Shown piece after piece: positions 49,547 to 61,454 of a stretch of DNA of 63,092 bases; the first letter of the stretch is position 1; each line of letters opens with the position of its first letter. The position numbers were made by a program, and so were the translations under genes. The notes under the pieces were generated by a model. It was not told the origin of the DNA and made no database searches. It saw only the letters and a program-made list of their open reading frames with translations. The stretch spans positions 1-63,092 of the forward strand of contig JAJOKP010000043.1 of assembly GCA_021129775.1 (NCBI GenBank). The letters run 5' to 3'. Source of the DNA: Clostridiales bacterium. Lineage in GTDB: Bacteria; Bacillota; Clostridia; Peptostreptococcales; NVVX01.

Positions 49547-50356
49547 TTATCTTAATAATTCAAATTCATTAATATAATTCGAACCAACAAAACTTTTGTT
49601 TCGCTCACCGTAGCGACCATGATAATCAGAACCTGCTGATAAGAATAAACTATGCTCCATTGCAAGTTCTTTAATTCTCTCTGATTGTTTTGTAGTAACT
49701 GAAGGGTAACTAGCTTCAATACCCATTAACCCGCTACTTACCAGTTCCTTTAAGGCATCAAGATTGTCATACACTGTAGGATGCGCTAATATAGGTATTG
49801 CTCCTGATTCTCTCAGAGCTCTTGTAGCGTCAATATGAGAAGGGTAAGCGATTCTCATCTCCAGAGGTCCACTGTTTTTAAACATTTTGCAGTAGAATTC
49901 TCCATATATATTGCTTGCATATCCTTTTTTAATAAGCACTTCCATAATATGCTGTTTGTAAAAACCGTGAATACCTCTCGTTTCTTTAAAATCTTCAAGT
50001 GAAATATCGTAACCCAAAGCAATAAGCTTTTCAACTTGCTTAACCCCATTACTATGCCTTTGTTTGGTTGTCGAAGCAATCATATCATCTAATGCTCTGA
50101 ATCCGCTTTGCACATACAGCCCAATAATATGACAAGATTTATTCCGCTTGTAGTCATAAGCGCTTATTTCAATCCCTGGTATATATTGCACACCATATTT
50201 CTCGGCTAAAACACGATGTTCTTCTACACCATACATTGTGTCGTGGTCGGTGATAGATATTAATGTAACGCCATTATTTTTAGCCATTCGAAAGACTTCT
50301 TCTGGGGTGTCACTACAGTCTGTATAGCTAGTATGCACGTGTAAATCTGCTTTCAA
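49547..50356 (-). CDS. PHP-domain phosphoesterase, candidate PhnPP (phosphoribosyl 1,2-cyclic phosphate phosphodiesterase)
   Basis: MKADLHVHTSYTDCSDTPEEVFRMAKNNGVTLISITDHDT; terminal gene of the phn cluster. Confidence 0.75.
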   Translation of the reverse strand: MKADLHVHTSYTDCSDTPEEVFRMAKNNGVTLISITDHDTMYGVEEHRVLAEKYGVQYIPGIEISAYDYKRNKSCHIIGLYVQSGFRALDDMIASTTKQRHSNGVKQVEKLIALGYDISLEDFKETRGIHGFYKQHIMEVLIKKGYASNIYGEFYCKMFKNSGPLEMRIAYPSHIDATRALRESGAIPILAHPTVYDNLDALKELVSSGLMGIEASYPSVTTKQSERIKELAMEHSLFLSAGSDYHGRYGERNKSFVGSNYINEFELLR

Positions 50357-50446
50357 ACTTTTTCCCCCTTCATATAAAAAAATAAACTTGCTTTGTTAAA
50401 GTTCCTCCGCTTCCAGAGTGTAACACAACTCTAGAAGCAAAAGAAT

Positions 50447-51271
50447 CTAATCAATAATGCTTTTTTGTCTAAAATAATTTATTGACACTTCCATTATAAG
50501 TGCAGTAACGAATATTAGTATAACACCAAAACCTTGTTCTGCATGGTTTCCTGCTCTAGCAGCGTTATTTATCATCGTTCCAATTGTACCGGGTACTCCT
50601 ACTGCTGGCCCAATAACAACCGCAACCGCAAAATTAATTTCACTCCGTATAGCAACCCAAGAAATCATTTTAGTTAATGATGAAGGCAAAACCGCAGCAA
50701 AGACTATCTGCAACCAATTTGAACCAGTTGCCTTTAATGCTTCTATAGTTCCACCATCGATTTCTTCAAATGCTTCAGCAAATGATTTAATGAAGAAAGA
50801 TAATGTGTGAAAAAACATTCCTACCACTGCTGTCGTTGCAGTAAGACCATATCCTGAAACCAGAATGAGAACCCATATAATTGTAGGTACAGCTCGCACA
50901 AAAGATGCAGCCCCACGAATAGCAGATGCTATTTTCCCATTCGTTAGATTTCTCGCAGCGAATAAACCCAAGATCAGTCCTATAAAATAACCAGATAAGG
51001 TTGTTAAAAAAGCTAAAGCAAGTGTATTAAGAAGACTTCGAATCATTTCAATTCTTTTTACGTTTTCCACTAAATCGAATCGAAGAAAATTTCGAGCAAT
51101 GTTCATAGCAGTCTCAGCTTGAAAAAATTCCCATCTAAATTCAATTCTAAAAAAAACCGTGTATATAGTTGTAAGAAAAAAAATAATAATGATACTATAG
51201 ATAGTGTAATCCGTCAAACTCATTATTTTCAGTTTCGGGCGATAGATAGTTAAGTCCCTAGCTCTATTCAT
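50447..51271 (-). CDS. phnE: Phosphonate ABC transporter permease PhnE (second)
   Basis: EALKATGSNWLQIVFAAVLPSSLTKMISWVAIRSE; next to phnC/phnD. Confidence 0.92.
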   Translation of the reverse strand: MNRARDLTIYRPKLKIMSLTDYTIYSIIIIFFLTTIYTVFFRIEFRWEFFQAETAMNIARNFLRFDLVENVKRIEMIRSLLNTLALAFLTTLSGYFIGLILGLFAARNLTNGKIASAIRGAASFVRAVPTIIWVLILVSGYGLTATTAVVGMFFHTLSFFIKSFAEAFEEIDGGTIEALKATGSNWLQIVFAAVLPSSLTKMISWVAIRSEINFAVAVVIGPAVGVPGTIGTMINNAARAGNHAEQGFGVILIFVTALIMEVSINYFRQKSIID

Positions 51272-52104
51272 GATAATATCCTCTTTCTTATCTGTATTGA
51301 TATTTGGTCAAAAATCAGTATTGTAATTACGACCATTATAACAGCAGCCATTAATTCATCAAATCTTCTAAAGTGCCTGTACACACCAATTAGGCGACCA
51401 ATACCTCCCCCTGCCAACATACCAATGATGGTTGCTGAACGAATATTTGATTCAACTGCATACAATGCCCAAGAGAGTGCAACCGGAAGCGTCTCTGGAT
51501 AAACAGCATGTACAATTATTTGCCAATAATTTGCTCCTGTTGCTTCTAATGCTTCTATACTATGCGAATTAGTTTCATCAATCATATCACTAAATAGTCT
51601 TGCGTTGAAAGCACACGTGCCAAGAGTCATAACAAGAAGTGCTAAAAACTCACCAAACCAGAATGCCATCAAGAGTATTATTGCCCATATCGGAGTCGGT
51701 ACATTTCGCACAAAACCTGCTACTACGCGTAATGAGCCTTTCAAAAATCTGTTTTTCCCTGTTTTGTTTGACATCCCAATGGCTGAAAAATATGCCAAAA
51801 AGCAGCCTATTGTTCCTGCAGATATAGCTAAAATAATTGTAACCCATATCTCTTCTAATAAGATATTTAGCGAGCTAAAATTAGGTGGCAAGTACAATTC
51901 GAAAAAACGTGCAACTACTTTGCCAAAATTCCTGAATATAAGAAAAAAGTCGAATCCTATCAATTCTGCTGCAAGGCAAGCAACAATAAACATGCCAAAT
52001 ATAGTTCCTATCGTTTTTACCAGATTATCATTGAAAAATTTTTTTAGACTTATTTTTTTTCCCTCTTTTTTAGCATGCCAGAATTTCATCAATTTGCGCT
52101 CCAT
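51268..52104 (-). CDS. phnE: Phosphonate ABC transporter permease PhnE (first)
   Basis: EALEATGANYWQIIVHAVYPETLPVALSWALYAVESNIRSATIIGMLAGGGIG. Confidence 0.92.
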   Translation of the reverse strand: MERKLMKFWHAKKEGKKISLKKFFNDNLVKTIGTIFGMFIVACLAAELIGFDFFLIFRNFGKVVARFFELYLPPNFSSLNILLEEIWVTIILAISAGTIGCFLAYFSAIGMSNKTGKNRFLKGSLRVVAGFVRNVPTPIWAIILLMAFWFGEFLALLVMTLGTCAFNARLFSDMIDETNSHSIEALEATGANYWQIIVHAVYPETLPVALSWALYAVESNIRSATIIGMLAGGGIGRLIGVYRHFRRFDELMAAVIMVVITILIFDQISIQIRKRILS

Positions 52105-52873
52105 ATATATATGCTATTTTATCTTTTGTCAATTGAATAGGCGAACCATTAAAAACTACTTCTCCATCTTTCATCCCAATAATTCTATCAGAATAGTTCA
52201 AAGCTACTTCAACTTGGTGCAGGTTCACAAGGCAAGGAATCCCCATAGATTTACTAATGGCTTTTAAATAATCCATAATAACTTTTGAAGCCTGGGGATC
52301 TAAAGATGCAATTGGTTCATCACATAAAATCAATTTCGGATTTTGAATTAATGCCCTTGCTATCCCAACGCGCTGTTTTTGTCCTCCAGATAAATTAGAG
52401 CATTTAAAGAACTTACGCTCAGAGAGTCCAAACATATCTAACAATTCCATTGCTCTTTTTACGTCTTCTTCAGTATACAAAGACAATGCACTACGTAAAG
52501 TGGAATAGTAACCAAGCCGACCGTGTAATACATTTTCTAATGCAGTTAGTCTATATACCAAATTATAGTGTTGAAACACCATTCCAATTTGTTTCCGTAC
52601 GTTGCGAAGTTTCTTTTTGCTAATCCCAATAGTCTCGTTTTGCTCAACCACTATGCTGCTGCCCGCATTTGGCTCTATCATTTGATTAATACAACGAAAA
52701 AGAGTCGATTTTCCAGCTCCACTTTCTCCAATTACTGAAACCAGCTCCCCTCTAGAAACGGAGAATGATACATCCTTAAGTGCCTCTGTTTGCCCTTTAT
52801 ATGTCTTACTTAAATTTTTGATTTCTAATGTGTTTTTTCCCACTATTACACCTCCTGATAAATTTTTGTACAT
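52070..52873 (-). CDS. phnC: Phosphonate ABC transporter ATP-binding protein PhnC
   Basis: GESGAGKSTLFRCINQM, LSGGQKQRVGIARAL. Confidence 0.95.
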   Translation of the reverse strand: MYKNLSGGVIVGKNTLEIKNLSKTYKGQTEALKDVSFSVSRGELVSVIGESGAGKSTLFRCINQMIEPNAGSSIVVEQNETIGISKKKLRNVRKQIGMVFQHYNLVYRLTALENVLHGRLGYYSTLRSALSLYTEEDVKRAMELLDMFGLSERKFFKCSNLSGGQKQRVGIARALIQNPKLILCDEPIASLDPQASKVIMDYLKAISKSMGIPCLVNLHQVEVALNYSDRIIGMKDGEVVFNGSPIQLTKDKIAYIYGAQIDEILAC

Positions 52874-53006
52874 ATTATAGATTCGCCCACAGAAAGATTG
52901 TACTTTTCAGTATGAAACACTAAATTAATCACTATACACCAATCTATTTCATCCGATTTATATTCCCCTTTGCGTCTCTCTGTAGGCAAATTACTATCTT
53001 TACATA

Positions 53007-53981
53007 CTACTTCTCTTCCTCAAACATTACCTCTAAAAATTCATAAAACTCAGGCTCTACAGCAAGAAATCTATCCTCAATATGCAGAGATTCACCAACT
53101 GGATTCTCTGTAAACATTCCTTCAGAAGCATTTTCTGGTGTCAAATTAACAAAATGTTCAACTATTGCATCAATGTGTTCTTGTTTCATAAATTCTTTGT
53201 TTATCCAAAACGGACCGTTTGGAACTAGTACTGTTGCAATTACATATAAATTATCTCGATGTGGTTCAAGATGCGGAAGATCTTTATCTCTGTCAACTGA
53301 ATCCCATGTTGCGCCAGCGTAAACTTTTTTATTTACAACAAGGTTCACACTTCCAGAATGGCACCCTCCAAATTGAATCTCCGAGAAAACACCACCATCC
53401 TCTGTAGTTAATTCAAACACTTGAGAACGCGAGCTAATTTCGTTTGTTCCATCAGGTCCAAAAAGATTCCAAAATGTAGTGGTTGGCACTAATCTTCCCG
53501 ATGTAGAAGTCGCTGCTACAAACCCAAAAGATTTTCCTTTAAGTGATTTTAATGCTTCTTCTTCGCTCATTCCTTCAAAATCACTCTTGTTATCAATATG
53601 CGTTACAATAAGTGAATAGTAGCCTGAAGCAACGCCTTTAGGTGCTCTAATAAACATAGGATAAATATTATTATTTTCTATACGCGCTTTCGCATATGTT
53701 GCTCCAGATGGTGTTCCTATATGAGCAGTCCCTGATAAAATAGACTCTGCTACCACAGAATAATCATCTGCAACGGTATATTCTACTGTTACATTAAACG
53801 GCTCTAACGCTATGTTCATTTCTTTCATAACAAAGTATAAGTACTCTGTCATCTCTCCTGCATCATTTGGTAATGCGGCAAGAGTATATACGACAGGCTC
53901 TTTCTCACCCATAATCTGACAACCAGTAAATACTGCAGAAATCAAAAGCACTACAACCACTAGCGTAATAATTTTTTTCAT
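53007..53981 (-). CDS. phnD: Phosphonate ABC transporter substrate-binding lipoprotein PhnD
   Basis: Lipobox VFTGC; solute-binding protein upstream of phnC/phnE. Confidence 0.9.
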   Translation of the reverse strand: MKKIITLVVVVLLISAVFTGCQIMGEKEPVVYTLAALPNDAGEMTEYLYFVMKEMNIALEPFNVTVEYTVADDYSVVAESILSGTAHIGTPSGATYAKARIENNNIYPMFIRAPKGVASGYYSLIVTHIDNKSDFEGMSEEEALKSLKGKSFGFVAATSTSGRLVPTTTFWNLFGPDGTNEISSRSQVFELTTEDGGVFSEIQFGGCHSGSVNLVVNKKVYAGATWDSVDRDKDLPHLEPHRDNLYVIATVLVPNGPFWINKEFMKQEHIDAIVEHFVNLTPENASEGMFTENPVGESLHIEDRFLAVEPEFYEFLEVMFEEEK

Positions 53982-53998
53982 TTTGAATCCTCCTAGTT

Positions 53999-54760
53999 TT
54001 AAATTGTTTTACGTAAATCCGACAATTGCGAAGCTTCTTTCATTTCAGTAGGAACTAATTTTTTTTCTCGCAGCCTCCTTTCTTCCATATTGTATTGTTT
54101 GTCGCATAATCCATGCATAAATTCTATATCATGAAAAATGCCTAACATCGTTGTCCCATCTCGTTTCAATTTCTCAATTAATGACCTCACTTTTTCTTTT
54201 GAAGCAATGTCTAATGATGCTGTTGGTTCGTCTAGAAGTAATAGTCTTGGCTTCTTAATCATTGCCGCTGCAACATTTAACCTTAATTTTTCACCTCCTG
54301 AAAATATAATAGGATAGCTATCCCATAGTTCTTTATCTAATTGAAAATGAGCTAATATTGCTTCAGCCTCTACTTTTGCATAAATTTCGTCATAGCCCAT
54401 TTCAAGCACAGCATTTTCAACGACTTCTCTAGCTGTTGTTCTAGGCATTATCTTTAAAAATTGAGAGACATATCCTATTTCATATTTACGCAAATATATA
54501 ATTTGTCTCTCAGTTGCTTTGTACAAATTTATGTAGCCAAATTTCTCTGAATCATAGTAGATATCTCCTTTTTCTGGCAGATAACTGCGATAAATACTCT
54601 TTAGAATTGTTGATTTTCCTGAACCACTCTTTCCTGTAATGCCAACGAATTCACCTTTGTTAAGAACTAATGAAACCTCATTGCAAGCTTTGATATATCT
54701 GTTTATGTTGTGGAGAGTAAATGATTTTGAAATGTTTTCAATCTTTAGTAATGGTTTCAT
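53999..54760 (-). CDS. phnL: C-P lyase subunit PhnL (ABC-type ATPase)
   Basis: LKIENISKSFTLHNINRYIKACNEVSLVLNKGEFVGITGKSGSGKSTILKSIYR; FSGGEKLRLNVAAAM. Confidence 0.93.
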   Translation of the reverse strand: MKPLLKIENISKSFTLHNINRYIKACNEVSLVLNKGEFVGITGKSGSGKSTILKSIYRSYLPEKGDIYYDSEKFGYINLYKATERQIIYLRKYEIGYVSQFLKIMPRTTAREVVENAVLEMGYDEIYAKVEAEAILAHFQLDKELWDSYPIIFSGGEKLRLNVAAAMIKKPRLLLLDEPTASLDIASKEKVRSLIEKLKRDGTTMLGIFHDIEFMHGLCDKQYNMEERRLREKKLVPTEMKEASQLSDLRKTI

Positions 54761-55403
54761 TTAATCCCTCTTTCCTGTCATGCTTTATAATAAAACTGCT
54801 AATATCTCCACGAAAATCATAGAGATTTTCTTTTATTTTCTCATGTGGCCAATCCCACCATTTAATTCTCTCAAGTGCTTCGATCATACTTTCTGCAAAT
54901 CTAAATCTAATCACTTTTGCTGGCACGCCTACTGCAATTGCATAAGGAGGTATGTTTTTAGTTACCACCGAACCTTGCCCAATAACTGCTCCATTCCCAA
55001 TTTCAATCTCGGGCTTAGTCAAGACTCCGTGACCAATCCAAGTATCGTGACCAATTGTTGCAATTCTTGCTTTTCTTTTTGCAAAAAAATCTTCATCATC
55101 CTTATTGTCAAGTCCATACATTTTGCTGCGATACGTGAAATGGTGTAATGTAGGTCTTTCTAGTGGATGATCCGTTGCTCCCACGCGAACATATGCAGCG
55201 ATATTAGAAAATTTACCAATGTTTGTATTTTGAAAAATACAATTGCTTCCTGTATAAGAGTAATCACCTAATGTTGTATTTTGAAGCATTGTAAAAGCGC
55301 CAATTTCGCACCATCTTCCTATTTTAGATGAAGTCATTTTCACTGTTTCATGAATAAAACCTTTTTCACTCAGCTTTTTTTCCAAACTCCCCATAGCTAG
55401 CAC
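54738..55403 (-). CDS. Hexapeptide-repeat acetyltransferase of phn operons (TIGR03308-like)
   Basis: HDTWIGHGVLTKPEIEIGNGAVIGQGSVVTKNIPPYAIAVGVPAKVIRFRF between phnM and phnL. Confidence 0.88.
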   Translation of the reverse strand: MLAMGSLEKKLSEKGFIHETVKMTSSKIGRWCEIGAFTMLQNTTLGDYSYTGSNCIFQNTNIGKFSNIAAYVRVGATDHPLERPTLHHFTYRSKMYGLDNKDDEDFFAKRKARIATIGHDTWIGHGVLTKPEIEIGNGAVIGQGSVVTKNIPPYAIAVGVPAKVIRFRFAESMIEALERIKWWDWPHEKIKENLYDFRGDISSFIIKHDRKEGLNETITKD

Positions 55404-56581
55404 CTATACCTTACTTGAAACACATGAGCTCCATCTACAAAACATGAGGTAATAGCTGGCAAATCATCTTCACCGATTTCAATAATCAATACATCTGCTC
55501 TTTTGCCTTTTTCAAGGGAACCTAATTCGTTATCTATCTTAACAGCTATTGCAGGATTTATAGTTGCTAGCTTAAACATTTCACTAAGGTCATGTCCATA
55601 CTTTCTATGTAGTTTAAAAATAGAGTGTAAAATTGCTGCTGGATAGTAGTCACTACATAGAATGTCGATAACTCCTGCTTCTATCGCTTCATGTGCGTTT
55701 AAATTTCCTGAGTGAGAACCACCTAATAATACATTAGGAGCCCCTGCTACTGTGTGAAATCCCGTCTCATGTGCCTTCTTAGCAACTTCCACGGTTATAG
55801 GAAACTCTGAAATAGTTACTCCGTACTCTTTCATAATTTTTAACTTTTCAACTGAATCGTCATCGTGAGAGGCTATAGCTACGTTTTTTGCTTTAGCTAA
55901 TTTTGTTATTTCTTTATAATCACTATCTACTAATTTGGGTTGTTTTTCGCGTATTTCAATAAGTGTATCTATTTCTCCTTCTGACATTGTGTTTCCATAC
56001 AAGCGAGTCATTTTCTTAAAACCCTCTATACTTCTGTACTGCCCCTGCCCTGGAGTATGATCCATAAAAGATAGCATATCTACTTTTCCTTCGTTAATAT
56101 AAGTTTTTAACTCGCAGATACTCTCTACATTATCAATTTCGAACCGAGCATGGAATTTATGCCTAATCAAATAATCTTGTAGCTGAGTTTTAGATATCAA
56201 GTCAATTAATTTTTTAACATTTTCTTTTTTTCTTATAGGTTTATTATTATTTCCATTTAGTTTATATAGACTTAAGGAATGGTACATAGTAGTAACTCCA
56301 TGTGTTAAAAGTTCTCTTTCCGCTTCCTTAAGAGCTAGCTTAAAGTCCATTAAGCTTGATGGTCTTGGCGATGCAATATGCTCTATGTAATCTGCATGAA
56401 TGTCAATAAACCCTGGAGATACATATCCTCCTTGCGCGTCAATAACCTCATGTATTCCTTCCAATTTTTCTCTTTCTTCTTTCTTGAGTACTTCAAAAAT
56501 AATTTGCCCTTTTAATAGTAAATCATATCCGCTGATGATACCCTCTGGCGTAACTAATTTTCCATTCGTTATTGCAATCAT
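55397..56581 (-). CDS. phnM: Phosphonate metabolism amidohydrolase PhnM (likely start 56581; ORF to 56623)
   Basis: VSPGFIDIHADYIEHIASPRPSSLMDFKLALKEAERELLTHGVTTMYHSLSL. Confidence 0.95.
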   Translation of the reverse strand: MIAITNGKLVTPEGIISGYDLLLKGQIIFEVLKKEEREKLEGIHEVIDAQGGYVSPGFIDIHADYIEHIASPRPSSLMDFKLALKEAERELLTHGVTTMYHSLSLYKLNGNNNKPIRKKENVKKLIDLISKTQLQDYLIRHKFHARFEIDNVESICELKTYINEGKVDMLSFMDHTPGQGQYRSIEGFKKMTRLYGNTMSEGEIDTLIEIREKQPKLVDSDYKEITKLAKAKNVAIASHDDDSVEKLKIMKEYGVTISEFPITVEVAKKAHETGFHTVAGAPNVLLGGSHSGNLNAHEAIEAGVIDILCSDYYPAAILHSIFKLHRKYGHDLSEMFKLATINPAIAVKIDNELGSLEKGKRADVLIIEIGEDDLPAITSCFVDGAHVFQVRYRC

Positions 56582-56603
56582 ATTGATTCTCTTTCCTCTC
56601 TTT

Positions 56604-57446
56604 TTAAAGTAGTGAGTGCACAAGTTGTTGCGTATATGGCTGTTGTGGGTCTTCTAATATTTGGTCTGTCAATCCAGATTCAATAACGCATCCTTCAAGC
56701 ATCACCAAAGTACGATTTGCCAGCATTTTTATAACTCCTAAATCATGTGATACGATAATCATACTGATATTAAGATCTCTTTGAATTTTTCTAATTAAAT
56801 CCAAGACATTTGCCTGTACCGAAAGATCAAGCCCTGTTGTAACTTCATCTAAAAATAATACAGGGGGATTATTTGAAAGTGCTTTCGCTATTTGTACACG
56901 CTGCTGCATTCCGCCTGAAAAAGTTGAAGGTGCATCCTTACGTCTAAATTCTTCTATTTTAACTACATCCAATAATTCGTTAGCACAACTAGATATTTGT
57001 CCTACATTTCGTGACCCTGCCGCAATTAATTTTTGCGCAATATTGGATATAGCTGAAAATTTCATTTGCAAGCCTAAATATGGATTTTGATAAACCATTC
57101 CTAATGAATAATCCCTAAGGTATCTTTTTTGTTGTGATGTAGTATTAAAAATGTTCTCTTTCCCTTCCTTATGCGAAAATAAATAAACTTCCCCTTTTGC
57201 AACTTCCTGTTCAAAGTAGAGAGATCTCACAAGAGTAGATTTCCCCGATCCGCTTTCACCAACGATGCCTAGTATTTCTCCCTCATACAAATCAAAAGAC
57301 ACATCTCGACAAGCATAGATTGTATAACAATGTGAACAATAGTTACGGTTTAAATTGCTTTTATCCTCATTACAATACTCACATCCTTCTCCAAATTGTC
57401 TAGTAATGTTTTTAACGCTTAGTACTTTCTTCTCAAAATCTTGCAT
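56604..57446 (-). CDS. phnK: C-P lyase subunit PhnK with N-terminal Cys cluster (likely start 57446; ORF to 57482)
   Basis: CEYCNEDKSNLNRNYCSHCYTIYACRDVSFDLYEGEILGIVGESGSGKSTL; FSGGMQQRVQIAKAL. Confidence 0.95.
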   Translation of the reverse strand: MQDFEKKVLSVKNITRQFGEGCEYCNEDKSNLNRNYCSHCYTIYACRDVSFDLYEGEILGIVGESGSGKSTLVRSLYFEQEVAKGEVYLFSHKEGKENIFNTTSQQKRYLRDYSLGMVYQNPYLGLQMKFSAISNIAQKLIAAGSRNVGQISSCANELLDVVKIEEFRRKDAPSTFSGGMQQRVQIAKALSNNPPVLFLDEVTTGLDLSVQANVLDLIRKIQRDLNISMIIVSHDLGVIKMLANRTLVMLEGCVIESGLTDQILEDPQQPYTQQLVHSLL

Positions 57447-58291
57447 TATGATTTGCCTCCTTTGTTCAAGCGTTTGAGGCAATCACTTGAATCATTGCAT
57501 TGATAATAAACTTCATCAGTTTCTTCTGTTTTGATTTCGTCCAAAAAAACATTTGCTGCACCACATAAATTGCATTTCAGCCCAGTTTGGTCTTCTAGTT
57601 CAAAAGGATAATCCTCAAATGCCAAAGAAACAACCTTTGTATATGGGGGCACTGCATATATTTTTTTCTCACGTCCAGCTCCAAGCAAAATAAGAGCTTC
57701 GCTTTCGTTTAGTTTTGAATTATCGTATTTTGGAATCGGACTTGGTGTCATGACGTAGCGATTGTGTACGAACACTGGATGCGCAGCACCACCTGTTACC
57801 ATCCCAAATTTAACGATCTTTTCAAAGAGAACTAACCACGCTCCACTATACTCCCCATCGGCGTGCAGCCTTTTTGTTTTATATTCACTTGACTCAACAA
57901 AACGAAGCGGTTCGGGCATTGGAACTTGCAAAACTAAAATTTGTCCTTTTTTTAGTTCTTCCTCTGGTATACGATGTCTAGATTGAATTAATGAAGCTTT
58001 TGATGTATCAACTGTATCTTTTATGCCTGTCGTTTTTCTTACTAAACTTTTAATACTGACTGCATTAACTGATTCATCTGTCCCTTGATCTATAACCTTG
58101 ATAATATCCTTTTTTGTTACAAGTGATAAAGTTAGCTGAAGCCCACCTGTTCCCCACCCTCTTGCTATTGGCATTTCTCTTGAAGCAAAAGGTACTTGAT
58201 ATCCTGGAATAGCAATGGCTTTTAATGTAGCTCTACGTATTTCTCGTTTTGAACCTTCATCAAAGAAAGCAAAATTATATTGGTTTTCCAA
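57446..58291 (-). CDS. phnJ: Alpha-D-ribose 1-methylphosphonate 5-phosphate C-P lyase PhnJ
   Basis: YNFAFFDEGSKREIRRATLKAIAIPGYQVPFASREMPIARGWGTGGLQLTL; C-x2-C-x21-C-x5-C Fe-S motif. Confidence 0.98.
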   Translation of the reverse strand: MENQYNFAFFDEGSKREIRRATLKAIAIPGYQVPFASREMPIARGWGTGGLQLTLSLVTKKDIIKVIDQGTDESVNAVSIKSLVRKTTGIKDTVDTSKASLIQSRHRIPEEELKKGQILVLQVPMPEPLRFVESSEYKTKRLHADGEYSGAWLVLFEKIVKFGMVTGGAAHPVFVHNRYVMTPSPIPKYDNSKLNESEALILLGAGREKKIYAVPPYTKVVSLAFEDYPFELEDQTGLKCNLCGAANVFLDEIKTEETDEVYYQCNDSSDCLKRLNKGGKS

Positions 58292-58294
58292 TTT

Positions 58295-59398
58295 CTACTT
58301 CTCCTTTCTAGTCTTACGCACACTATCTAATTTAGATTGGAATGTTACGTAATGAGGTAATTTTAAATGAGAAATAAAACCGCTGGCTTCTACTGAATCT
58401 ATATGATATAAAACAAATTCTTCATCGTGAGTTGGTGAGTCTTCTTTCATCTCTAAACAGCGATCTAGAATACTCATTGCTATTGCTTTAGATTCATTTT
58501 GTCCATAGCAAATACCATAACCCACTTCAAGTCTCTCTTCTCTTGTTCCATCTTTGTTTTTTATCGTTGTTGGTATAATGGACTCAACTTCTGTCACACG
58601 GATAGATCCAATATAATAACTGTCATCATCCTCTTTTGAACTTTCTATTGGCGAATCAATATAAATCGGTAATAGACCAACACGAAGTTCGCCTACTGTA
58701 GGATGCACAGAACCAAATCCTCTAAGTGAAGCGTATCCAAGAGCTGCAACAGCTCCTGTTTGACCTCTAGTCAAAATTTGAAGGCGTTCGCTACGCTTTG
58801 TTGGAAACTTTAGAGATTCTTTTGTTACGTCTTTTGGTTCGTCATTGTTTATCTCATAGTTAATCATGATGCCTTCTTCTCTTAAATAATCGATAACTTT
58901 TGGAAAACGTATGGATTTAGTGTCATAGTTAATATCAACTGCCACTTTATTATACTTTTCAACCCATTTTTTTATTTTTCGCGAGTCTTTCTCTTCTACC
59001 GCTATGTTAAAATCAATTAGTCTATGAGTATAGTCATAAGAGGTCCCAAGAATTTGCCCCCCAGGGATATCTTTAAAACTTGCTGAAATACGTCTCTCTA
59101 TTTCCATAGTTTCGCTCTCAATGATTCTTGAATAATGCTTTCTAGGTAGAGTTGATCTAAAGGCTCTAAGTAGAAAAACTACTTCTTCTGGATTTCCCTC
59201 TGACTGTTTGACTGCTATAGCAGCAAGTTCTTCATCATATAACGATGCTTCACTCATCACTTGATCAATAAGACCACGCATACCAGACTCAATATTTTTA
59301 AGCTTTAGTATACCACCATTTTTAAATCGTTCATATTTAATGCGCTTAATGGATTCTTGAATCGCTTTTTGTCCTCCCTTTACAGCAACATAAGCCAT
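58295..59398 (-). CDS. phnI: C-P lyase subunit PhnI
   Basis: MAYVAVKGGQKAIQESIKRIKYER; YASLRGFGSVHPTVGELRVG. Confidence 0.97.
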   Translation of the reverse strand: MAYVAVKGGQKAIQESIKRIKYERFKNGGILKLKNIESGMRGLIDQVMSEASLYDEELAAIAVKQSEGNPEEVVFLLRAFRSTLPRKHYSRIIESETMEIERRISASFKDIPGGQILGTSYDYTHRLIDFNIAVEEKDSRKIKKWVEKYNKVAVDINYDTKSIRFPKVIDYLREEGIMINYEINNDEPKDVTKESLKFPTKRSERLQILTRGQTGAVAALGYASLRGFGSVHPTVGELRVGLLPIYIDSPIESSKEDDDSYYIGSIRVTEVESIIPTTIKNKDGTREERLEVGYGICYGQNESKAIAMSILDRCLEMKEDSPTHDEEFVLYHIDSVEASGFISHLKLPHYVTFQSKLDSVRKTRKEK

Positions 59399-59400
59399 GT

Positions 59401-59988
59401 TTATTCACTCCCTCTCACTGTAGTTGTTCTTGGTAATGCCATTAAATCGGAAGATTTGTCTAGAAAATACATCTCAATACCAAGGGGATATTCGTCGTTT
59501 TTTTTGCTTCTTATATCGATCCATCTATCGAAATAATCCATATAGATAATTTTATGTCCTTTGATACCAGGCCCTGAACTCAAATTTGCCTCTCCTTGAC
59601 TAACACTTTCTACCTCGCAGATTACAGTAGCTGAAAGATGAGGATTAATCAAAGTTCCAATTTTTGCTTCCATCAACGCTTCATCTTTCTCACTATTAGA
59701 AGCTGAAGCCAGAACAAAAATAAAATCTGCTTCGCTAACTGAAACTGATTTAGCGTAGGTCAGTCTAGCTATTAAATCACTCGCTTTTCCTTCAACATCA
59801 CCAGCAACAAAATAACTTACTTCTGCATCAAGTAGCATATAAACCATAATTATTGTGGCTTCATAAAAAGGTAGTATTAATTTATTGTTTTTAATGGATT
59901 TAGTAAGAGAGTAAATATCTCCTGGATAACTATTCGCTTTCACTAATTTGCGGTAACTATAAGCAACATCATGAATCAAATCTATCAT
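59401..59988 (-). CDS. phnH: C-P lyase subunit PhnH
   Basis: Position between phnG and phnI; LSSGPGIKGHKIIYMD, YPLGIEMYFLDKSSDLMALPRTT. Confidence 0.95.
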   Translation of the reverse strand: MIDLIHDVAYSYRKLVKANSYPGDIYSLTKSIKNNKLILPFYEATIIMVYMLLDAEVSYFVAGDVEGKASDLIARLTYAKSVSVSEADFIFVLASASNSEKDEALMEAKIGTLINPHLSATVICEVESVSQGEANLSSGPGIKGHKIIYMDYFDRWIDIRSKKNDEYPLGIEMYFLDKSSDLMALPRTTTVRGSE

Positions 59989-60423
59989 TTAAGCCTTAAC
60001 CTCCTCATCAAGAGTTTCAAAATCAACTTTTGTCTTTAAAATTTGTTTGCAAATCAATGCTTTTTTTTCATCTATTTTCAATTTTTCTTCTTTAATCATA
60101 AGATCCAAATCTTTTGTTTCCCTTACCTTTGCATTATACGCTGCATCAATAATTGCCAAGTAGTTGGCTCTTTTTTTATGTGCCCCTTTTATAATCCCGA
60201 GTCCAATAACCCCATCTAACATAACCTTGCATTCAGTTACAAATACTTCACCTAAATAGAATAAATGTTTTTGGGCGCTTTCTCTCATTTTCACCATAAT
60301 TAGACCACTATTAGGTTCTTCAAGTATCTCAATATTGTGCTTGTTTTCTATGATTTTTGCCATTTCTTCTAGTTTTTCTATATCACAGTCTATTAAAATT
60401 TCCGTTCTTTGTTTTCGTCTCAT
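59989..60423 (-). CDS. phnG: C-P lyase subunit PhnG
   Basis: EPNSGLIMVKMRESAQKHLFYLGEVFVTECKVMLDGVIGLGIIKG. Confidence 0.94.
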   Translation of the reverse strand: MRRKQRTEILIDCDIEKLEEMAKIIENKHNIEILEEPNSGLIMVKMRESAQKHLFYLGEVFVTECKVMLDGVIGLGIIKGAHKKRANYLAIIDAAYNAKVRETKDLDLMIKEEKLKIDEKKALICKQILKTKVDFETLDEEVKA

Positions 60424-60494
60424 TATTATCTCTCTTTCTATCTTGATTTTCTATTTATAACTAACAAAAGCAAAATTCTTTCCTTTAAATAAAT

Positions 60495-60516
60495 ACTATC
60501 TTGGCGCCAAGTTAGT
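60495..60516. promoter_or_regulatory. 22-bp near-perfect palindrome, candidate PhnF operator upstream of phnG
   Basis: actatcttggcgccaagttagt (central cttggcgccaag perfect). Confidence 0.6.
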
Positions 60517-60518
60517 AA

Positions 60519-60579
60519 TGTTAAGAAGAAGTTAATTCTATTTAAAGCTTGCATTAAGAACGTGTAAATAACTTGTTAA
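60519..60579 (-). promoter_or_regulatory. Six hexamers on an 11-bp register, candidate PhoP-box array
   Basis: Plus-strand hexamers tgttaa(60519) agttaa(60530) tttaaa(60541) cattaa(60552) tgtaaa(60563) tgttaa(60574); minus-sense TTAACA-like. Confidence 0.65.
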
Positions 60580-60587
60580 TAAATAAT

Positions 60588-60628
60588 GCGCCTCACTCAC
60601 ATGACTAGAAATCACGTGAACGAGACGC
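60588..60628 (-). promoter_or_regulatory. 17-bp stem RNA hairpin in the phnF-phnG leader, fully paired only as minus-strand RNA
   Basis: GCGUCUCGUUCACGUGA uuucuag UCAUGUGAGUGAGGCGC; all four non-Watson-Crick positions are G-U in this orientation. Confidence 0.7.
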
Positions 60629-60739: not shown

Positions 60740-61454
60740 CTACCACTTTGGCTGTAATCGGTAAACAAAACGATCTCCACGATAAACAATTTTGGTAATT
60801 TCTAATATTTCATTAGTTGCTTTGTCCATACACTGAGATTCAAGAAGAAGAATAGGCACTAAACTCGGACATTTCAGCACTTCTCTTTCATATCTAGACG
60901 GTAATAGCGTTTGAAGATCTGATTGTTTATAATAAAAACTGCTATATCCATGTTCTTTATAATACCTAAACATTGAAGTTATTGTTGGTCCATCTTTTTC
61001 AATCTCCTTGAATAATTTGTTAGATACATAGGAAGTATGTAATGCGACCTCTTCATCATTTATGATACGGAGCCTTGAAATTTTGAATATTCGATCTTCC
61101 ATGCTAATATGCAACTTTTTTCTAATTCTAGAATCATTTTTTAGCTCAGTAAAATCAATATTAATAGTTTCAAGCTTGTGCCTATTTTTTCCCATTTTTT
61201 TCGGTAAAACTAGTGTCACCTTCTAACAATAGCTCTATTCTATCATGCTTTGATTTATAATAATGCCCTTTACCTTGTTTTGAATAAACATAACCCATTT
61301 CTGTTAACCTTTCATATGCTTTTCGCACATCATGTCTAGTAGAGCTGTATATCTTAGTTAGTTTATTTTCACTAGCCAACTGCCCATCAACTGCATATTC
61401 ACCATTTCTAATACTTTCTACAATATCATCAACTATTTTCATCCATACAGCCAT
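60740..61454 (-). pseudogene. phnF: GntR/UTRA regulator (PhnF-like) split by a frameshift in a homopolymer
   Basis: ORF 61182-61454 (GntR wHTH) ends ...GDTSFTEKNGKK*; ORF 60740-61219 resumes ...KMGKNRHKLETINIDF (UTRA); 7-T run at 61195-61201. Confidence 0.85.

Follow-up and report, generated by a model that had tools for sequence, protein, structure and literature searches.

The window, that is the whole 63,092-nt stretch of DNA that was analysed, carries a C-P lyase/phosphonate operon on its minus strand, the first gene of which is phnG (59989..60423; PF06754, 114 bits). This is followed by the rest of a closely spaced phn cluster (49547..59988, minus strand) with phnH, phnI, phnJ, a phnK-like ABC gene, a phnM-like amidohydrolase, a hexapeptide acyltransferase, a phnL-like ABC gene, a phnD-like binding protein, a phnC-like ABC gene, two phnE-like permeases and a PHP-type hydrolase, the last five having been named from position and sequence. 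A Pfam scan confirmed PhnG, PhnH, PhnI and PhnJ and then the ABC and amidohydrolase genes, in keeping with the identification of phnG in the preliminary description of this DNA. As the genes are co-directional and closely spaced down to 49547, one promoter could serve them all, transport genes included. The operon is patchy within the genus of the window, having been lost or acquired, since two genomes of that genus (G001 and G002) are both without phnG.

Upstream of the operon lies phnF (60740..61454, minus strand), which is found in two reading frames as the result of a one-base frameshift in an A-run near 61195. Its halves, GntR at 61182-61454 and UTRA at 60740-61219, are both above the Pfam cut-offs (PF00392 and PF07702 respectively) and supply the N-terminal GntR winged helix, the C-terminal UTRA domain and the linkage to phn genes that characterise PhnF, divided here between the two frames. 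Between phnF and the promoter region of phnG is a terminator-like hairpin of 19 pairs with a T-rich tail (60588..60628, minus strand) that is very stable (z-score -6.4) and is best read as the terminator of the preceding phnF transcript, insulating the promoter; a role as the component of a switch was considered and rejected in favour of this. When the phnG leader was searched for RNA elements, nothing in Rfam matched it up to E=1.

Six TTNACA-like hexamers in exact 11-bp phasing occupy 60519..60579 of the minus strand and form a putative PhoP/PhoB-type binding site. These are TTAACA (60579-60574), TTTACA (60568-60563), TTAATG (60557-60552), TTTAAA (60546-60541), TTAACT (60535-60530) and TTAACA (60524-60519), and their coordinates agree with those given when they were first noted as Pho-box-like repeats upstream of phnG. 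Against TTNACA the array scores 26 out of 30 scored positions, the middle hexamers TTAATG and TTTAAA being weak matches, whereas the best arrays in 20,000 dinucleotide-preserving shuffles of the 316-bp AT-rich intergenic region had a mean score of 16.5 and a maximum of 23, with 26 reached in none of them. The same scan with periods of 7-10 and 12-19 gave scores of 14-17, period 11 alone standing out. When a phased four-hexamer pattern with no more than one mismatch is sought throughout the 2.2-Mb genome it is found at two sites, the phnG array and the region upstream of a sugar-type ABC transporter.

Similar phased arrays elsewhere in the genome precede pstS (C22), a Na/Pi cotransporter with a PhoU domain (C90), a zinc phospholipase C (C28) and, on C39, a UDP-glucose dehydrogenase and a sugar-type (Ugp-like) ABC transporter, genes such as a Pho regulon would be expected to include (PMC4415409). 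A few similarly strong arrays are found within coding sequence or at unrelated sites, and the pattern is therefore not specific by itself. The Pho box is defined by its 11-nt direct-repeat unit (PMC4415409), and the array before phnG has six such units, in a register that is kept in 60 relatives, and stands in the promoter of a phosphorus-acquisition operon, that for C-P lyase, in a genome where pstS and others are preceded by the like. The best PhoB-like protein of the genome (G000:C13:5268-5948), which adjoins a histidine kinase, scores 260 bits against a cut-off of 296 bits that is passed in 2 of 14 control genomes.

Beside the end of the array is the 22-bp palindrome ACTAACTTGGCGCCAAGATAGT (60516-60495, minus strand). 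Its location directly downstream of the hexamers is as previously reported, but perfect symmetry is limited to the 12-bp core CTTGGCGCCAAG (60500..60511, minus strand), the 22-mer having 2 mismatches with its own reverse complement; the core is a putative PhnF operator with the conserved form CTTG-N4-CAAG. The genome-wide search for the palindrome that had been suggested found ACTAACTTGGCGCCAAGATAGT nowhere else in the 2.2 Mb, even with up to 3 mismatches allowed. A candidate for a second operator in the genome, at C94:2264, contains CTTGGCGCCAAG and was rejected, as it is within a coding ORF and the match is therefore probably due to chance. Genome-wide, the 15-bp operator motif is confined to phn promoters in the genome of the window (G000) and, among its nearest relatives with phnG, in G035, G007 and G056, with two sites in G007, one on the phnG and one on the phnD side, and has zero sites in G001 and G054, while the larger genomes (Bacilli, Desulfosporosinus) have 1-3 sites each, a subset of which was checked.

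For comparison, a set of 80 phn loci was used together with phnG loci from further genomes of the same order, and most phnG promoters of these relatives carry CTTGGCNNCAAG, usually as CTTGGCAACAAG. The register was examined in 60 non-redundant phnG promoters, mostly from Bacillota, that were anchored on the operator with the window excluded, a hexamer being counted when at least 4 of 5 positions matched TTNACA. Hexamers are found at -14 from the operator in 75% of the relatives and at -25 in 80%, with further peaks at -34 to -36 and -45/-46 and with the positions between mostly near zero, against a shuffled background with a mean of 4% and a 99th percentile of the highest column of 18%; the hexamers of the window lie at -13, -24, -35, -46, -57 and -68. 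The 11-bp register is thus kept beyond what AT-rich chance would provide, which is what the preliminary description had wished to see checked, and it is the TTNACA sequence, beyond mere A/T tracts, that is fixed in position across Bacillota of widely differing base composition. Many Paenibacillus and Bacillus-type loci have a second operator upstream of phnG with the same array and -10, apparently the phnC/D promoter. In loci of Solibacillus and Caryophanon (L142, L143 and L144) a second palindrome, of the TTGGCGCCA type, precedes the phnG hexamers, ~50-60 bp before the main operator, and is perhaps a second PhnF site.

Directly after the operator is TAGTAT (60493..60498, minus strand), a putative -10 element ~70 nt downstream of which phnG starts. 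In 60 of 60 relatives a TANNNT sequence starts 13 bp after the start of the operator, and it is near absent at other nearby positions. The -10 proposed originally was GATAGT, which lies 18 bp from the last TTAACA and is also picked by a simple consensus scan; given the invariant TANNNT register of the relatives, which points to TAGTAT, GATAGT is probably not the real -10. The proposal that the palindrome core sits in the spacer before the -10 holds, since the space from the array to TAGTAT is taken up by the operator, but the accompanying idea that the last TTAACA acts as a -35 does not, as it is 20 bp from TAGTAT and so too far away for an ordinary -35. This hexamer is best read, from its spacing, as the proximal half-site of an activator. 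The distance from the TTNACA hexamer to the -10 in the relatives is 20-22 bp, and at the 16-18 bp expected of an ordinary sigma-A promoter 4/6 matches to a -35 are found in 3 of 61 cases. Judged on these distances, the promoter appears to depend on an activator, with the operator filling the spacer and a response regulator that would occupy the -35 region.

The gene phnG is present in 18 of the 396 genomes of the order, and the operator is found at its promoter in all nine that have a PhnF-type gene and in none of the nine that do not, although many of the PhnF-less genomes come from one genus and these are therefore not 18 independent cases. Eight of the nine PhnF genomes have CTTGGCNNCAAG or a sequence within one mismatch of it, and one has CTTGTTAACAAG. 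At L179 (G138) this variant, which is perfectly palindromic and differs at its centre, stands directly upstream of phnG. Three more distant operator-bearing genomes have no phnF nearby and a PhnF ortholog elsewhere (57%, 48% and 43% identity), whilst those operator-less genomes that were tested have paralogs of 25-30% identity or no match at all. The palindromic operator is therefore present where the regulator is present, including where the ortholog is in trans, which supports the palindrome being tied to PhnF as its putative repressor operator. The PhnF-less genome G399 has a strong hexamer array (17/20) and no operator, as expected if array and operator are separable modules. Within a PhnF-less genus (g38) the Pho arrays are not clearly above chance, leaving G399 as the one genome that speaks for Pho control without PhnF.

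A histidine following the first arginine of the recognition helix is found only in genomes where the operator has a GGCGCC centre (the window, L007/G035, G074 and L084/G068) and otherwise in L147, where the protein is a divergent one. The position aligns with the residue after Arg48 of NagR, an arginine that reads G-4 (PMC4333415), and by our numbering it is position 39 of the HTH, for which a correlation with the bases at the operator centre has been reported in HutC regulators (PMC4494728). Strong at first sight, this covariation is a single event, the GC form of the operator having arisen once on the PhnG tree, and is suggestive only. Among 388 genomes of the class the GGCGCC-centre pattern gave eight other matches, none of which had phnG in the flanks examined.

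The array, operator and -10 conserved in relatives, together with the co-occurrence of operator and PhnF, suggest that the composite promoter first proposed, with activation by the Pho system and putative repression by PhnF, was largely the right reading. We would put at roughly 85% the probability that this is a composite promoter of a C-P lyase/phosphonate operon, made up of a PhoP/PhoB-type array, a PhnF operator and a TANNNT -10, in which the binding proteins, the directions of their effects and the ligand are inferred from sequence. Upon Pi starvation a phosphorylated PhoP/PhoB-type response regulator would bind the 11-bp array head to tail and, with the proximal hexamer approximately at the -35 location, recruit RNA polymerase to a TANNNT promoter that has no proper -35. 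The HutC-type repressor PhnF, bound to CTTG-N4-CAAG between the array and the -10, would block initiation until freed from the operator by a ligand, perhaps a phosphonate or an intermediate of the C-P lyase pathway. With activation by Pi scarcity and a block by PhnF, expression of the operon would require both low Pi and release of the repressor.

It would seem unlikely that the array is functional here while the operator is a relic, with phnF truly broken and the operon answering to Pi alone. Such a situation would fit with the two frames of phnF in the assembly and with the existence of PhnF-less relatives that have phn operons, G399 with its strong array among them. Set against this, the break is of one base in an A-run, a typical site of assembly or sequencing error, both halves are otherwise open and align to a profile from relatives in which the phnF orthologs are intact, and the operator, which the PhnF-less relatives do not have, is perfectly palindromic in the window. 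The break may be an assembly error, slippage or real loss, each of which is compatible with the sequence, and as phnF is frameshifted PhnF repression may be absent in the source organism; the operator itself is intact.

That the palindrome is bound by some regulator other than PhnF, or that PhnF activates there, we consider improbable. In favour of this are the three relatives in which phnF is not adjacent to the operon and the form of the operator, as most HutC-type regulators have conserved operator boxes GT-N4-AC (PMC4494728) and CTTG-N4-CAAG does not provide the GT and AC boxes 4 nt apart. Exceptions to this consensus exist within the HutC subfamily (PMC4494728), so an operator that does not match can be a divergent one and PhnF is not excluded by it. 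The strict co-occurrence with PhnF, in trans where phnF is not adjacent, argues for PhnF, as does the histidine that accompanies the GGCGCC centre, albeit as a single event on the tree, and the operator abuts the -10 in 60 of 60 relatives, which is a blocking position. It is very improbable that the hexamers arose by coincidence in AT-rich DNA or serve as a structural element of phased A/T tracts (a DNA bend or UP element) and are not regulator sites, for although the region is AT-rich, its middle hexamers are weak and T-rich tracts near helical phasing are able to bend DNA, the array outscores every shuffle, period 11 alone stands out, TTNACA keeps its positions in compositionally diverse Bacillota and like arrays precede Pi-starvation-type genes in the same genome.

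The logic of the composite promoter, Pho activation combined with PhnF repression, is known elsewhere, and the operator is divergent; that of PhnF in Mycobacterium smegmatis is reportedly TGGTATAGACCA, unlike CTTG-N4-CAAG. According to PMC7866108 (citing Gebhard and Cook 2008; Gebhard et al. 2014), the GntR-type PhnF of M. smegmatis represses phnDCE, an operon that rises under Pi limitation, and the control predicted here for phnG would be of the same kind. The two systems differ in that phnF of M. smegmatis is divergently transcribed, there are two sites in a bidirectional promoter and it is a Pi transporter that is controlled (PMC7866108). The C-P lyase operon of E. coli, phnCDEFGHIJKLMNOP, has a Pho box and a gene for the regulator PhnF (PMC7866108). 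There the Pho box precedes phnC and phnF is one of the genes of the operon, whereas here phnF comes before the operon, on the far side of a terminator, and phnG is the first gene served by the promoter. Promoters with a Pho box for PhoP or PhoB (PMC4415409) have the same head-to-tail 11-nt direct repeats before phosphorus-acquisition genes; the array here has six units, an operator is inserted between it and the -10, and the bound protein is putative. The closest solved relative of the GntR domain is NagR/YvoA of Bacillus subtilis (PMC4333415; PDB 2wv0, 4u0v, 4wwc), which shares with the PhnF system the HutC-type repressor class and a palindromic operator. In each half-site NagR reads two guanines, and six nucleotides separate its half-sites (PMC4333415), whereas CTTG and CAAG are four apart, and an Asn is found where NagR has Arg38.

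A search of the main texts of open-access papers found no description of this operator or promoter geometry; the supplementary tables of PMC4494728 may hold PhnF groups. We would give even odds that C-P lyase operons of Bacillota have a rigid and so far undescribed class of promoter, where a divergent PhnF operator replaces the usual -35/-10 spacer, so that a single invariant segment of DNA serves both for Pho activation and for phosphonate-specific repression, and that in the lineage of the window the recognition helix has changed together with the centre of the operator. For the control of C-P lyase in Bacillota the arrangement amounts to an exact promoter model, in which the distances from activator array to operator and -10 are fixed, and CTTG-N4-CAAG with its immediate -10 is a motif for the computer search of PhnF regulons. 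Through C-P lyase, methylphosphonate becomes a source of methane and phosphonate pollutants are degraded, and the probable gating by Pi starvation and a PhnF signal would therefore bear on the timing of both in anaerobes and soil bacilli.

Two more observations concern repeats in the genome of the window. The 11-bp tandem-like repeats (TTAACAACTGC...) at G000:C9:51427-51498 (L056), which are intergenic and lie before a threonine-synthase-like gene, match the hexamer pattern yet look like a simple repeat. The phased hexamer arrays on G000:C39 (L049) number three, at 10410-, 11343+ and 17162+; they lie ahead of genes for a glycosyltransferase, a sugar-type ABC system and a UDP-glucose dehydrogenase and are possibly part of a Pho-controlled glycolipid or teichuronic-acid-like response.
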